Assembly: GCA_017461565.1 (NCBI GenBank)
Contig: JAFTXQ010000014.1
Location: 179,594-243,593, forward strand
Length of the DNA: 64,000 nucleotides
Direction of reading: 5' to 3'
DNA from: Oscillospiraceae bacterium
GTDB taxonomy: Bacteria > Bacillota > Clostridia > Oscillospirales > Ruminococcaceae
Under the pieces are notes generated by a model that was not told the origin of the DNA, did not search any database, and worked only from the letters and a program-made list of their open reading frames with translations. Of the stretch, positions 3,371-55,480 are shown piece by piece. How positions within the stretch are numbered: position 1 is the first letter of the stretch; every line of letters starts with the position of its first letter. The position numbers and the translations under genes are program-made.

Positions 3371-3396
3371 GTAGGGGCACGACGTGTCGTGCCCGT
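3371..3396. repeat. Single REP-like palindrome
   Basis: A 26-base perfect repeat of 2851-2876 (GTAGGGGCACGACGTGTCGT, then GCCCGT), between two plus-strand genes. The rest of the gap 3261-3525 holds only the ribosome binding site of the next gene and no open frame that I can support. Confidence 0.85.
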
Positions 3397-35100: not shown

Positions 35101-36833
35101 TCATAGGAGCACAGAAGTCTGAAGCCGTTTTCGTCACGGAAATAAAACTCGTGATAACCCGAATCCATTCCCATATATTCGGCGTATGATTTCATCCAGA
35201 ATTCGCCGTGGTCCGCCTTTACATAATACGGAGCATTTGCATAATACCCGAGATTTCCGTTTTCCAGCAGATCCTGAACAGACTCAGGGTCATAATGTGT
35301 ATCGCCTGCAAGAGCGTCCTTTATATACTGCTCATTCCTCTTTTCCATCTCGGGGCTGAGAGATGTGCAGAACTCCAGAAGCTCGGGGTCGTCGCCCTTA
35401 TACAGATCCATTACGGGCCATGCGGTGGGGTCGGGGAGCAATATCTCGGGGGTCACAGAAACATATCGTTTTTCTGCCGCAAAATCCACAAGTGTCATCT
35501 GTTCCTGTCCGTATACCAGATCATATACAAGCAGGTATCGTCCGACAAGGCGTGTCTTGTGGCCGACATTGCCGTCAAGCTTGTACTTGTAGCGCATACC
35601 GCTCTGCACGAAATGGCAGTATACCGTATCAGTGCCGTCGGCGTTCCGGCGGCACCATACAAGACGGTTTCCGTCAGCGTCGATAAGGTCGAAGCGGTCA
35701 GAAGGACAGCCTGTTTCTATCTCATTCGTTATATTATGTTCATCGTCCCTGAAGCATATCACGGCATATCCGTTCCTGTCCTCTGCGTTACAACCGAGGT
35801 CGGCATGGGTGCAGGGGAGTACATCAAGGACAGGCACAAAGGTCTCGGAGCAGGTACCTCCACGTGAAACGTCAAGGCTTACTCTGCACATATTGCCATC
35901 CTTGTCAAACCATGTTATCTCGTCTGTTCCCGTATGAGTAGGGGTCATCGCAGGGATGGATGTTCCGCCCTTGTCCACAGGGAAAAACACCTCGCCGTCT
36001 GAAAGCTTCATTACTGCGAGCTTTCCGACAGGATCGTCGCTGATATCAAGGTGCCAGAAGATATAGTTCTCCGTTATCACGGGATCGACATGGGAGGAGA
36101 ACTGCTTTCCGTCCAGCTCGAAACAGCCGAGATACACGAACTCGTAATCCTCACGGTCGAAACTCACGCCCGTCTGGTTGCTGCGGTAAACGTCATAGCG
36201 TTTTGCGGTGGTGGTCATGAGGTCCTGCATATATATGCCGTAGACATGGTCCGAGCTTTCGTCAAAGCGCAGCGTATGCAGAGCGTTTATTTCGGCTTCG
36301 GACAGGCTCTCACGCTGCCCGTCGGTGAGGTAATCCATCAGCGACAGCTCCGCAGGTATTGTCGGCAGTGCAATATCAGCGAACTGCTTTGCGGTGAAGC
36401 CGCTCTTATTATCATTAAACGAAGCCTTATAGAAATCTGTCATGGAGATGGCGTTATCCTCAGGCGCATCGGGAATGACAGGCTCGGCTGTGTCGGGAGT
36501 GTCGGTACTGTCTGTGCTGTCGGCGGTATCTGTCGTCACATCGGTGGGCTGGCTTCCTACAAGGTCGGGGCGGTTGAAACGGACGATCACAACGGTGCCG
36601 ATCAGAACAAGTACTGCTGCCGCAACTGCGCCAATGCCGGCAAACAGCTTAAGGCGGCGATTTTTAGGTTTCTGCGCACTGCTTGTCTTTATTTCGGTGG
36701 GGATACCACGGTAGTCTGTGCAGTCCTCTGGGCCTAGCTCCTGCGGTGCGTGGGATGCAAAGTACTCCGCAGCTTCGTCAGTGAACTTATCGCTGATATT
36801 CTCGGTCACTTTGTTCCAGAAATCCATGCTCAT
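32199..36833 (-). CDS. Very large single-pass membrane protein, putative ECF anti-sigma/sensor
   Basis: 1544 residues, among the longest in the window. A short cytoplasmic part (1-60, beginning MSMDFWNKVTENISDKF) is followed by one transmembrane helix (about 62-84), a Thr/Asp-rich linker (92-120), and about 1420 extracellular residues. The outer part is beta-rich with propeller-like segments (YLYYMYRNTDEMTDKLFRI; DIDFDGAKELLICYTLRG; DIDWDNDQEYVFLVDAGGS). The ATG overlaps the ECF sigma stop (ATGA), the standard sigma/anti-sigma arrangement, and the topology fits an anti-sigma factor with an outside sensor. No zinc-finger HxxxCxxC motif is present in the cytoplasmic part. The function is inferred from position and topology; I do not recognise the outer domain. 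Confidence 0.75.
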   Translation of the reverse strand: MSMDFWNKVTENISDKFTDEAAEYFASHAPQELGPEDCTDYRGIPTEIKTSSAQKPKNRRLKLFAGIGAVAAAVLVLIGTVVIVRFNRPDLVGSQPTDVTTDTADSTDSTDTPDTAEPVIPDAPEDNAISMTDFYKASFNDNKSGFTAKQFADIALPTIPAELSLMDYLTDGQRESLSEAEINALHTLRFDESSDHVYGIYMQDLMTTTAKRYDVYRSNQTGVSFDREDYEFVYLGCFELDGKQFSSHVDPVITENYIFWHLDISDDPVGKLAVMKLSDGEVFFPVDKGGTSIPAMTPTHTGTDEITWFDKDGNMCRVSLDVSRGGTCSETFVPVLDVLPCTHADLGCNAEDRNGYAVICFRDDEHNITNEIETGCPSDRFDLIDADGNRLVWCRRNADGTDTVYCHFVQSGMRYKYKLDGNVGHKTRLVGRYLLVYDLVYGQEQMTLVDFAAEKRYVSVTPEILLPDPTAWPVMDLYKGDDPELLEFCTSLSPEMEKRNEQYIKDALAGDTHYDPESVQDLLENGNLGYYANAPYYVKADHGEFWMKSYAEYMGMDSGYHEFYFRDENGFRLLCSYEGGMLYSGFVCDGEYLYYMYRNTDEMTDKLFRIKPAAVGASENCYIEELYDATLEIPSFGQELWDGYPTMYLNKQFSGKRNKLYVELNYFGYDPQVERVDKLVFNSDMEIISNESTGYGVSYYGGKMYLHYKDFGGSSGSQMEHNMLYKVSDIDTELMELGNAKLADAVKLFQINNGLASRKENDTYSGDSSYAAIASQYGGFEGIEKLYNSTFAPNMYDYGGAYYATSCPSPTPWMKDSDRSASTLWSELNGKMKLSGDKVYVQHNDPEMAELWTVIDGILEKSENRIVYLLCTIDDFAKNGDYTTYSFQHSEMILEKLGGEWLITQIRPRLGNEYGTENREELIDAGVERLGSRKSYVDIQCDFIEKDGGIVIGTAEEDIDFDGAKELLICYTLRGERRIKVMECIEDAYWQHKTEIKSELFEGITSLTWDTLQRYDGEGGQFYYFTLRDDREDYVVRITCEQDEYNPRIIRYNVTRHTDVAPEKGEWERITEELEAEGMTVRTAQQLDIDWDNDQEYVFLVDAGGSNRLYIYENKGGLLRQESFITSGMRFVGDDFVLKPYSGMYGNFWYYEFDYSGNAMTAHVYARIEKNYNGYEGVYLYSNGTISYTDIAVPFTTEFWRKGWDYNDVAIGVDYGDISKAEYEALIKDLKMSEYVDDIEGYTTLMENPRVYSVSGTSAELDIIGSLMVQMYMEDLSGYGSGYDTERTFSVHYSRVDGAKLYPIADIPENSKWNVTAEERAFEEAWIVEPDGHFAWFGKMYGLMGGSSMPFSAINDNPCFLLWRDGNEHYLRSRAFNGRQEQYMTNQQLSDWVEDNLSDALALEKLFYLSCNYDNVSSEMLHDGKLDVTESEFNVNGFTTVAQVQAEVDRLYACVGKEKLVASDRFSDKDGRLYVAPTSVGFPIESYAGGDTIEILSQNGDMICFSIGINSMVYPDQGYQPASRVITIKRDNGTWKLTHLVMLI

Positions 36834-37375
36834 ACTTCAACACCCCTTTCCGAAAGATACCTGCGCAGTGCCTTACGGCTTCGGAGCAGGCTGCTCTTTA
36901 TGGCAGTTACGCTCATTCCCGTGTTCTCCGAGATGTCCGCAAGGCTGAGGTTATAGAAATACCTTGCCACAAATACTATTCTGTTCTTTTTGCTCTGCTT
37001 TTCCAGGAAGCTGTTGATGTACTCGGATATCTGCCTGCTGTCATAGCGTGACTCAGTTGTACTGCTGTCGGGTAGTACCTCGGCAAGCTCCTCGTACTGC
37101 TCCTCTATGCCTCTTCGTGCAATGATATCGCAGGCATTCAGTGCCGTATTGCGCACTATCCTGCAAAGGTAGCCGCACAGCGACTCGGGGCGCTTCGGCG
37201 GAATAGCGTTCCACAGCTTTACATAGCTTGTGCTGACGCACTCCTCTGCGTCCTCATGGTTTCCGAGTATTCCGTAGGCTATCCTGCCGCACAGACTGCC
37301 GTATTTCCCCTGAGTTTCGGTCAGCGCCTGCTCTGAGCGCTCAAAGAACAGCTCTATTATTTTCACATCTTCCAT
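36830..37375 (-). CDS. ECF-type RNA polymerase sigma factor
   Basis: 181 residues. Region 2 covers about residues 20-85 (YGILGNHEDAEECVSTSYVKLWNAIP, a clear 2.2-2.3 signature) and region 4 about 125-180 (FVARYFYNLSLADISENTGMSVTAIKSSLLRSRKALRRYL). ATG 37375 has GGGAGGTG just upstream. The same frame stays open back to an ATG at 37480 inside a repeated hairpin, but that start has no ribosome site. Translation of the large downstream membrane protein is coupled by a 4-base overlap, so the pair probably forms a signal-responsive regulon. Target genes are unknown. Confidence 0.92.
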   Translation of the reverse strand: MEDVKIIELFFERSEQALTETQGKYGSLCGRIAYGILGNHEDAEECVSTSYVKLWNAIPPKRPESLCGYLCRIVRNTALNACDIIARRGIEEQYEELAEVLPDSSTTESRYDSRQISEYINSFLEKQSKKNRIVFVARYFYNLSLADISENTGMSVTAIKSSLLRSRKALRRYLSERGVEV

Positions 37376-37450
37376 TACTGCACCTCCCGTTGGAGATAGT
37401 TTTATATCAACGCCGCTTGACGGTGTTATCATCTCTTTTAATGTGTATCG

Positions 37451-37489
37451 CTGCATGGGAGAACTTCGTTCTCCCTTCATATATTATAA
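37451..37489. repeat. 39-base hairpin repeat, copy A
   Basis: Identical to 37588-37626. It contains the stem-loop GGGAGAAC-TTC-GTTCTCCC and, read on the minus strand, a TATAAT box and an ATG whose frame runs into the ECF sigma gene. Confidence 0.9.
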
Positions 37490-37510
37490 GAACCGCACGC
37501 CGTTGCCCAA
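37483..37510 (-). promoter_or_regulatory. Candidate promoter of the ECF sigma/anti-sigma operon
   Basis: On the minus strand: TTGGGC (37505-37510), 16 bp, TATAAT (37483-37488). The -10 lies inside the 39-base repeat. The transcript would begin near the GGGAGAAC hairpin, about 100 bases before the start codon. Confidence 0.45.
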
Positions 37511-37592
37511 ATCAGAGATTTGGACGGCTGGGCGAACCTTGAAATATATAAATCCAATTTGCTTCGCAAATTGCTGCAGCCATTCGGCTGCA
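37507..37592. repeat. Three further short-loop hairpins between the two 39-base repeats
   Basis: Perfect stems with tiny loops: CCAAATC-AGA-GATTTGG (37507-37523), CAATTTGC-TTC-GCAAATTG (37555-37573) and TGCAGCC-ATTC-GGCTGCA (37575-37592). With the two 39-base copies this makes five hairpins in about 175 bases. The gap 37376-37718 holds these, the spoIIID terminator and no gene I can support. Confidence 0.8.
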
Positions 37593-37626
37593 TGGGAGAA
37601 CTTCGTTCTCCCTTCATATATTATAA
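37588..37626. repeat. 39-base hairpin repeat, copy B
   Basis: Identical to copy A at 37451-37489, 137 bases away in the same orientation. Confidence 0.9.
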
Positions 37627-37675
37627 CAATTAATCTCCTCTTTTGGTTGCGTTTTGCAAAAAATATTTTTCACAT

Positions 37676-37712
37676 AAAAGTGCCGCCCGAAAAGCACTGC
37701 TCCTCGGGCGGC
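37676..37712 (-). terminator. Terminator of spoIIID
   Basis: GCCGCCCGA stem with its complement (37682-37690 with 37704-37712) and a T-rich stretch on the minus-strand exit side. Confidence 0.8.
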
Positions 37713-41111: not shown

Positions 41112-41365
41112 AAAGCCGAAAGGATGATAGTTCCTTTCGGCTCTGCCTGTCGAAAAACCAGGTTGATGCCCGCACAGCGGGCATTTTTTGATTACTTTTT
41201 TGGTGTGGCTTTGCCACACCAAAAAACACTTCTATCCGCACAACTGTGCGAGTTGGCGGTATCACCGCCAACGAGTGCGGGCAGTGCGGATGTTTCGGCG
41301 GAAAAGTCTCAACGGGACTTTTTCGACGGTTTCAGCCGGAAGGATGATAGTTCCTTTCGGCTTTT
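41112..41365. repeat. Island of short palindromes after the lactate dehydrogenase gene
   Basis: Hairpins in order: AGCCGAAAGGA with TCCTTTCGGCT (41112-41140); the terminator at 41166; TTGGTGTGGC-TTT-GCCACACCAA (about 41200-41222); CGCACA-AC-TGTGCG (41237-41250); GTTGGCGGT-ATC-ACCGCCAAC (41252-41272); and a second CCGGAAGGATGATAGTTCCT-type hairpin (41337-41361) that repeats the first. The gap 41095-41369 holds no gene. Confidence 0.8.
41166..41189 (+). terminator. Terminator of the lactate dehydrogenase gene
   Basis: ATGCCCGC-ACA-GCGGGCAT perfect stem followed by five or six T. Confidence 0.85.
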
Positions 41366-52394: not shown

Positions 52395-52440
52395 GTAGGT
52401 CATGGTTAAATAGCGAGAACGGTAAGCCGTTCTCCTACAT
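52395..52440. repeat. Hairpin element with GTAGG/CCTAC ends
   Basis: GAGAACGG-TAAG-CCGTTCTC (52415-52434) is enclosed between GTAGG (52395-52399) and CCTAC (52434-52438), which recalls the GTAGG ends of the 2851 element. It lies in the 123-base gap between aconitase and the YitT gene. Confidence 0.65.
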
Positions 52441-55308: not shown

Positions 55309-55361
55309 TCTTTGCGGTCGGGGCGACCGCAATTTCCTTTGGAAGCCGAAAAGATTGCTTA
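55309..55361. repeat. 53-base repeat, copy 1
   Basis: Differs from copy 2 (55428-55480) at only a few bases. It contains TTGCGGTCG-GGG-CGACCGCAA. Between the copies is another hairpin, TGACCGC-AG-GCGGTCA (55399-55414). The gap 55237-55477 holds this array, the rex terminator and no gene. Confidence 0.9.
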
Positions 55362-55427: not shown

Positions 55428-55480
55428 TCTTTGCGGTCGGGGCGACCGCAATTTCCTTCGGAAACCGAAAAGATCGCTTA
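55428..55480. repeat. 53-base repeat, copy 2, running into the stop codon of the PPi-type pfk gene
   Basis: Same hairpin as copy 1. Its last three bases are the stop codon of the minus-strand phosphofructokinase gene. Confidence 0.9.

Follow-up and report, generated by a model that had tools for sequence, protein, structure and literature searches.

The hairpin island at 37441-37640 of the window (the whole stretch of 64,000 nucleotides analysed here, from contig JAFTXQ010000014.1 of an Oscillospiraceae bacterium) is not a row of independent palindromes; its five hairpins belong to a dispersed composite repeat, of which the island holds one full unit and the beginning of a second, truncated one. 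We consider it likely that this repeat is a non-autonomous composite mobile element that inserts into -10 boxes in one preferred orientation, duplicates ~7 bp and becomes a predicted mRNA leader. As established by sequence comparison, the host site exists without the element, the element is dispersed and its hairpins covary.

All five perfect short-loop hairpins that a sequence-only reading had described in the island were located by a perfect-palindrome scan:

37457-37475: hairpin, 8-bp stem, loop TTC
37507-37523: hairpin, 7-bp stem, loop AGA; the apical hairpin of the core
37555-37573: hairpin, 8-bp stem, loop TTC; hairpin A
37575-37592: hairpin, 7-bp stem, loop ATTC; hairpin B
37594-37612: hairpin, 8-bp stem, loop TTC; hairpin C

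Against these five, 1000 dinucleotide-preserving shuffles of 37430-37640 gave a mean of 0.036 and a maximum of 1, and an excess over shuffled sequence extends to the whole window, where 27 perfect hairpins (stem of at least 7, loop of 3-4) were counted and 20 shuffles averaged 7.3. Folded as the minus strand, 37430-37640 reaches -81 kcal/mol (z -7.8). GCTGCATGGGAGAACTTCGTTCTCCCTTCATATATTATAA is present twice, 137 bases apart, such that two of the five hairpins are copies of one, and both copies of this duplicated hairpin are contained in a 43-nt direct repeat with 98% identity. Ordinary terminators in a cluster, or palindromes arisen by chance, would likewise place several short-loop hairpins in an intergenic region, but such an origin is close to impossible: the shuffling rules out chance palindromes, plain terminators are ruled out by a terminator scan of the island that returned one weak terminator-like site (tail GATTTATATA, with no T run), a separate terminator-like site at 37682-37712 belongs to the upstream gene, and the architecture is common to copies elsewhere.

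A plain DNA search with the island matched six further places in its own genome and, when the sequences were read by eye, these places and others in relatives shared one architecture. On the window-minus strand, the order of the unit is TATAATATATG, hairpin C, hairpin B, hairpin A, CATATATTTCAA, a conserved core and TATAAT. The core follows the pattern GGTTC-nnn-CAGCCGTCCAAATC-loop-GATTTGG-nn-ACGGCGTG-nnn-GGTTCTT and is a stem with two G-U wobble pairs, a side bulge and an apical hairpin. The parts of the window copy are listed below, where helix numbers refer to an alignment of 24 full units (A1), R1 is the covariance model built from 24 units and R2 is a model of the core:

37480..37625, minus strand: full repeat unit, TATAATATATG-C-B-A-core-GGTTCT-TATAAT; R1 match, 131.3 bits, E 6.6e-31
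37620..37625, minus strand: TATAAT at the 5' end of the unit, read from the sequence as -10 position and part of the site duplication
37594..37612, minus strand: hairpin C, GGGAGAAC-GAA-GTTCTCCC; A1 helix 2, six of nine pairs change on both sides
37575..37592, minus strand: hairpin B, TGCAGCC-GAAT-GGCTGCA; helix 3, a slot that covaries at five of six pairs
37555..37573, minus strand: hairpin A, CAATTTGC-GAA-GCAAATTG; helix 4, a slot that covaries at two of four pairs
37489..37540, minus strand: core, AAGGTTCGCCCAGCCGTCCAAATC-TCT-GATTTGGGCAACGGCGTGCGGTTCT; helices 5-7, core model R2
37483..37488, minus strand: second TATAAT, on the core side of the full unit, where the truncated copy begins; 137 bases from the first TATAAT
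37450..37488, minus strand: truncated second unit, TATAATATATG and a second hairpin C, after which it ends; identified from the 43-nt direct repeat

The R1 score of the window copy is partly a product of construction, since this copy is among the 24 rows that built the model; the dispersed copies were found independently of R1, by the plain DNA search. The role given here to the 5' TATAAT of the window copy is drawn by analogy with three filled sites that were compared with empty sites at the same genes. Some units stand alone and others in tandem, the period being ~126-128 bp in relatives (taken from the places of the matches, with query offsets allowed for) and 137 in the window. The element itself is ~121 bp long without the duplication. 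A reading of the repeated TATAATATATG as belonging to the ends of the element was dropped because the empty sites make ATAATAT a host duplication. Comparison of the ends by eye gave only a partial likeness (TTATAAGAAC / TTATGAGAAC), with no clear terminal inverted repeat seen.

Some copies depart from this plan. A long subtype (L005, L036 and L173; G000:C8, G008:C257 and G008:C181) has an extra module of ~85 nt inside the core, which by eye forms a three-way junction (GTTCGTTC...GAACGAAC around two hairpins), and this subtype sits at leuS in two species. Arrays of at least four core-bearing tandem units are present at L246 (G539), L105 (G109) and L042 (G008), with periods of 76, 136 and 127 bp, respectively. 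The core copy at L007 (G000:C7) is interrupted by other sequence, the translation of which looks to us like an IS30-type transposase. Core copies at L017 (G026), L106 (G189) and L244 (G590) lie in or beside a second, tRNA-like stretch, as supported by two tRNA matches for L106 and by reading of the sequence for L017 and L244.

The predicted structure of the unit is kept while its sequence changes. Among the 24 units, mean pairwise identity is 87% in the core and 60% in the hairpin region. In a 47-pair structure that RNAalifold derived from their alignment and to which the outer stem was added manually, 95.8% of cells are paired as opposed to 87.4% in shuffles, and sliding the partners by 1-3 columns reduces pairing to 36-42%. 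Both sides change with pairing kept at 18 of the 47 pairs, a number reached by none of 500 shuffles, and both the cells changed on both sides (109 vs. 31 in shuffles) and the covariation score (0.282 vs. 0.121) agree with this; one covariation measure counts against, in that the number of further pair types was matched by 37 of 500 shuffles. The tandem units of L043 have identical cores and share only 53% of the letters of their C and B stems. On the window-minus strand, G-U cells outnumber A-C cells by 26 to 5 (two fixed wobble pairs excluded), an excess that, in these sequences, fits selection on RNA of that strand; in a wider-family set of 34 cores the corresponding counts outside the wobble columns are only 7 to 4. 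The ends of the hairpin block are also complementary (columns 4-11 with 81-88, AATATATG with CATATATT), with only one of these eight pairs changing on both sides. This end pairing lies upstream of the predicted +1 and hence could not form in the transcript predicted to start there; any action of this pairing would be in DNA or read-through RNA. A search of the 24 units for shuffled cassettes (four combinations of two hairpin types and two slots) returned one B/A case and one C/A case, on which count exchange of hairpin cassettes is suggested only.

Mobility is indicated by the comparison of filled and empty sites. Dispersed copies, both in the window's own genome and at loci in its genus, stand at unrelated sites. 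The cleanest pair is at hprK, where the flanks of the filled site in genome G045 and the empty site in G016 match at 55/56 and 67/70 alignment columns and overlap by exactly 7 nt, ATAATAT; the empty G016 site reads TTGAAA-17-TATAATAATAT. One of the ten filled/empty comparisons, between the G045 hprK site and that of the less similar G001, gave no overlap. In G015, hprK is filled at the same promoter position and overlaps by 14, 12 and 11 nt with G004, G021 and G012, respectively (the G004 site is empty, and its HprK is 96% identical to that of G015 over a 100-residue query). At leuS, which is filled in the window's own genome (G000), overlaps with five species are 10-13 nt, and the site is empty in G043, G044, G046 and G004, each of which has TTGACA 17 nt before TATAAT. 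Because the letters of element and host resemble each other at leuS and at hprK of G015, the overlaps of 10-14 nt at these sites are to be taken as upper bounds. G008 likewise has a related subtype of the element at leuS, which would be a separate insertion or the same old one. Read from these alignments, the insertion point at leuS and hprK is the -10 box, such that the -35 and one TATAAT are kept upstream and a second TATAAT stands downstream.

The window copy was compared with its own surroundings in the same manner. Its gene context is as follows:

36830..37375, minus strand: putative ECF sigma gene (an ORF with likely start codon at 37375 and ribosome-binding site GGGAGGTG at 37381-37388)
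37645..37650, minus strand: GCAACC box, 18 nt upstream of the TTATA at the element's edge (by eye, suggestive only)

We take this ORF to be an ECF sigma gene from reading of its sequence; homologues, many of them paralogues, occur in 37 of 43 genomes of the genus (E 1e-30 or better). The gene starts 74 nt downstream of the element, which has the second, truncated unit behind it, and the placement upstream of an ECF sigma operon that had been read from the sequence holds, with the element on the sense side between the putative promoter and the start codon. Of four element-free homologues inspected by eye, L128 and L130 have GTAACC-N18-TTATA, L131 has GTAACC with another spacing and L127 does not have it. 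The GCAACC-N18-TTATA of the window and the GTAACC-N18-TTATA of two homologues suggest that the window element probably inserted into the ECF gene's own promoter.

A link to promoters was sought across 59 element places, hand-picked from 133 matches that include duplicates of the same place; 43 are from the window's genus and one named MAG (JAMPCH records) and 16 from other genera, and a few resemble each other or share a gene (leuS twice; L018 and L039). Only the 43 copies of the genus and the named MAG entered the -35 test. A perfect TTGACA stands 17-18 nt before the 5' TATAAT in 10 of the 42 copies with a readable 5' side (two of the ten both at leuS), against a background of 0.0005 at random positions, and one further copy of the 42 has TTGAAA 17-18 nt before the terminal TATAAT. 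At the other end of the element, the mirror test found none of 43 copies with five or more of the six -35 letters. A strong -35 (at least five of six) is lacking at the 5' end of 31 of the 42 copies, and for these insertion at a -10 box is thus a preference or an older footprint. With neighbour genes called by a simple ORF rule, under which some calls are spurious, 32 of 41 copies of the genus and the one MAG point the same way as the nearest ORF downstream of them, and (+,+) contexts outnumber (-,-) contexts by 18 to 4 (two-sided sign test ~0.004). The 16 copies from other genera give 3 and 5 such contexts, so the orientation bias is not seen there. In two distant carriers, G259 and G324, 20 loci were fetched, of which 3 were dropped and 17 had a core found by pattern; a promoter was on the expected side in none of these 17 and on the other side in one. 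Promoter targeting is thereby seen, at the level of sequence, in the window's genus and one named MAG, and is absent in the two distant carriers.

These data bear directly on the possibility that the element is a DNA-only MITE, whose hairpins serve a transposase as single-stranded DNA or cruciforms and whose transcription is incidental. The filled and empty sites support mobility of this kind as well, pairing between the two ends of the hairpin block falls outside the predicted transcript, some copies are nested or in tandem, and the other genera and the two distant carriers lack the orientation bias and the promoter link, respectively. Against a DNA-only element stand the sense orientation towards genes in the window's genus, the one-sided -35 association (10/42 vs. 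0/43) and the one-strand asymmetry of G-U over A-C, and we regard it as an unlikely alternative.

REP/BIME sequences with RAYT are intergenic palindromes, and Y1 single-strand transposition is not expected to give a 7-bp duplication. An origin of the element as REP/BIME-type palindromes moved by a Y1 (RAYT/IS200-like) transposase would fit the occurrence of short intergenic palindromes in many copies, but the Y1_Tnp domain (PF01797) had no match in the window's own genome (93% complete) and is found in 4 of 16 carrier and 5 of 27 noncarrier genomes of the genus, the target duplication is at odds with the Y1 mechanism, and the unit is composite and much larger than a lone REP. Mobilisation by Y1/RAYT was rejected on the absence of PF01797 from the own genome and its lack of association with carriers, which leaves this origin very improbable. 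The search for a partner IS, which was limited to PF01797, found none.

R1 matches occur in 16 of 43 genomes of the window's genus (E 0.01) and in 15 of 197 genomes sampled from the family, representing 11 of 125 genera (E 0.001). R2, which together with its order-wide count was built on 34 hand-chosen cores, matches, at E 1e-4, 31 of the 394 genomes in a sample of the order (in 19 of 168 genera) and 9 of the 398 in a sample of the phylum. Three of these nine are from the same order (own genome included) and six from outside it, namely a strong full-length match in G970, a weaker one in G954 and four weak partial matches. Copy numbers from both models are lower bounds, as few candidates were scored per genome, and those from R1 include opposite-strand shadow matches of the near-palindromic unit. 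Among named genomes, an exact pattern occurs in 19 stretches, all from MAGs labelled Oscillospiraceae, Clostridia or "Roseburia sp.", and the source of two of these assemblies is deer colon. A blastn search of the 211-base island against phage and plasmid collections returned no match (E 1e-5); a viral contig has an exact 19-nt match to one hairpin and, by eye, the rest of the unit is absent around it.

A known Rfam RNA family is ruled out by scans of the window and of 16 loci. At the gathering threshold, the window gave two tRNAs only and no model for the element, and the 16 loci (E up to 0.5) gave four matches, to a T-box, two tRNAs and, weakly, a snoRNA, of which the only one touching the place of the element is a 29.7-bit tRNA in L106, where the copy lies within tRNA-like sequence. 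The covarying structure between promoter and start codon is what a cis-regulatory, riboswitch-like leader RNA, nonmobile and conserved for sensing, would show. Such a leader is nonetheless highly improbable given that no Rfam model exists for the element, that the downstream genes look unrelated (judging by their translations, we take them to be leuS, hprK, a malQ-like gene, the ECF sigma gene and others), that the promoters of the same genes in relatives lack the element and that tandem and truncated copies occur.

The sequence-only reading had further proposed that hairpins of this design are also present at 41.1, 52.4 and 55.3 kb and that the whole forms a class of mobile or selected hairpins distinct from random palindromes and terminators. 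For the island, a mobile or selected character is borne out, since the repeat is dispersed, covaries and has filled and empty sites, although the conserved unit is the whole ~121-bp element, with three variable hairpins and a conserved core, and not the single hairpin. The proposal does not extend to the other islands, as R1 matches only the island and its opposite-strand shadow in the window. The other hairpins concerned, together with a separate set near the start of the window, are as follows:

41112-41144 (minus strand) and 41334-41362 (plus strand): terminator-like hairpins with related stems in opposite orientation
41165-41185: third terminator-like hairpin (terminator scan)
41196: 14-bp stem, TTTTTTGGTGTGGC-TTT-GCCACACCAAAAAA (palindrome scan)
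52415-52434: lone hairpin, GAGAACGG-TAAG-CCGTTCTC, with a stem like the hairpin C types
55312-55332 and 55431-55451: hairpin pair, TTGCGGTCG-GGG-CGACCGCAA, a tandem duplication with a 119-base period
2855-2874, 2899-2918 and 3375-3394: three GGGCACG.../...CGTGCCC palindromes near TAGGGGCACG (palindrome scan)

Membership in the family was rejected for the stretch at 41.1 kb, which has no R1 match and holds terminator-like sites; for the pair at 55.3 kb, a local tandem duplication at one place in the genome; and for the hairpin at 52.4 kb, on the lack of an R1 match as the sole test. The GGGCACG/CGTGCCC palindromes may be another dispersed palindrome family, and in L004 the copy of the element lies between similar GTAGGGACACGG palindromes.

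Among known systems, the closest in architecture is BOX of Streptococcus pneumoniae, a likeness drawn by setting the element beside the available passages of the published description (PMC3049150) and not by sequence. Both are small composite repeats that duplicate the target on insertion. BOX is built of submodules (boxA-boxB(n)-boxC) in varying number and is strongly folded if transcribed, traits that the element may share, with its tandem units in several genomes and a covarying predicted structure. According to the same passages, boxA/boxC stimulate downstream expression in experiments cited there (Croucher et al. 2011, PMC3049150), a BOX is described in the leader of the trp operon, and BOX is over-represented between convergent genes. 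The element differs in that convergent ORFs flank 4 of the 40 copies for which both neighbours are known (a count without a genome-wide baseline), its hosts are gut Oscillospiraceae-type MAGs, the module it repeats is an entire unit containing three covarying hairpins, and its insertion in the window's genus is in sense orientation at -10 boxes. With MITEs, as treated in those passages (PMC3049150), it shares being short, structured and dispersed with a target duplication; it differs in lacking clear terminal inverted repeats or a known partner IS (PF01797 search) and in being AT-rich only to a moderate degree (the G045 copy has 47% GC). A survey of human microbiomes, gut bacteria included, lists 3161 structured RNA candidates (PMC8040213), among which the element could be present; the passages available from that source name no such mobile element. 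Within the literature searched, beyond which lay supplements and most subscription papers, we recognised no published description of it. In architecture and likely behaviour the element is thus BOX- or MITE-like as judged from its sequence, and likely distinct in its insertion into -10 boxes and in its covarying, possibly exchangeable hairpins.

We propose that this mobile element, moved by an enzyme supplied in trans, would target AT-rich -10 boxes (ATAATAT within TATAATAT) and that the -35 and -10 would survive its insertion, such that transcription would continue and the element would become a 5' untranslated leader. The distance from TATAAT to the first base of hairpin C is 5-7 nt in aligned copies (seven in the window), and the -10 hexamer usually occupies -12 to -7, from which +1 is predicted to fall at the first base of hairpin C or close to it. 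The mRNA would then open with stem-loop C, with hairpins B and A next and the core after them, and this 5' stem would be expected to make the transcript less prone to 5'-end-dependent decay and the element harmless. More tentatively, and as a possibility that we would not favour in full, the element may recognise the -10 of active promoters (possibly as melted non-template strand) and insert in sense, the duplication rebuilding the promoter and a leader of exchangeable hairpin cassettes stabilising the mRNA, so that insertions would be tolerated or used.

If the reading as a mobile element at -10 boxes is true, it would describe an element that adds leaders at the start of transcription without breaking promoters, and would raise the questions of what would lead a transposition machine to -10 boxes and how pairing can be retained when stems are replaced. 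Pairs of the same promoter with and without the element, such as hprK in G045 and G016, would then be natural comparisons for the effect of a 5' hairpin leader on expression.
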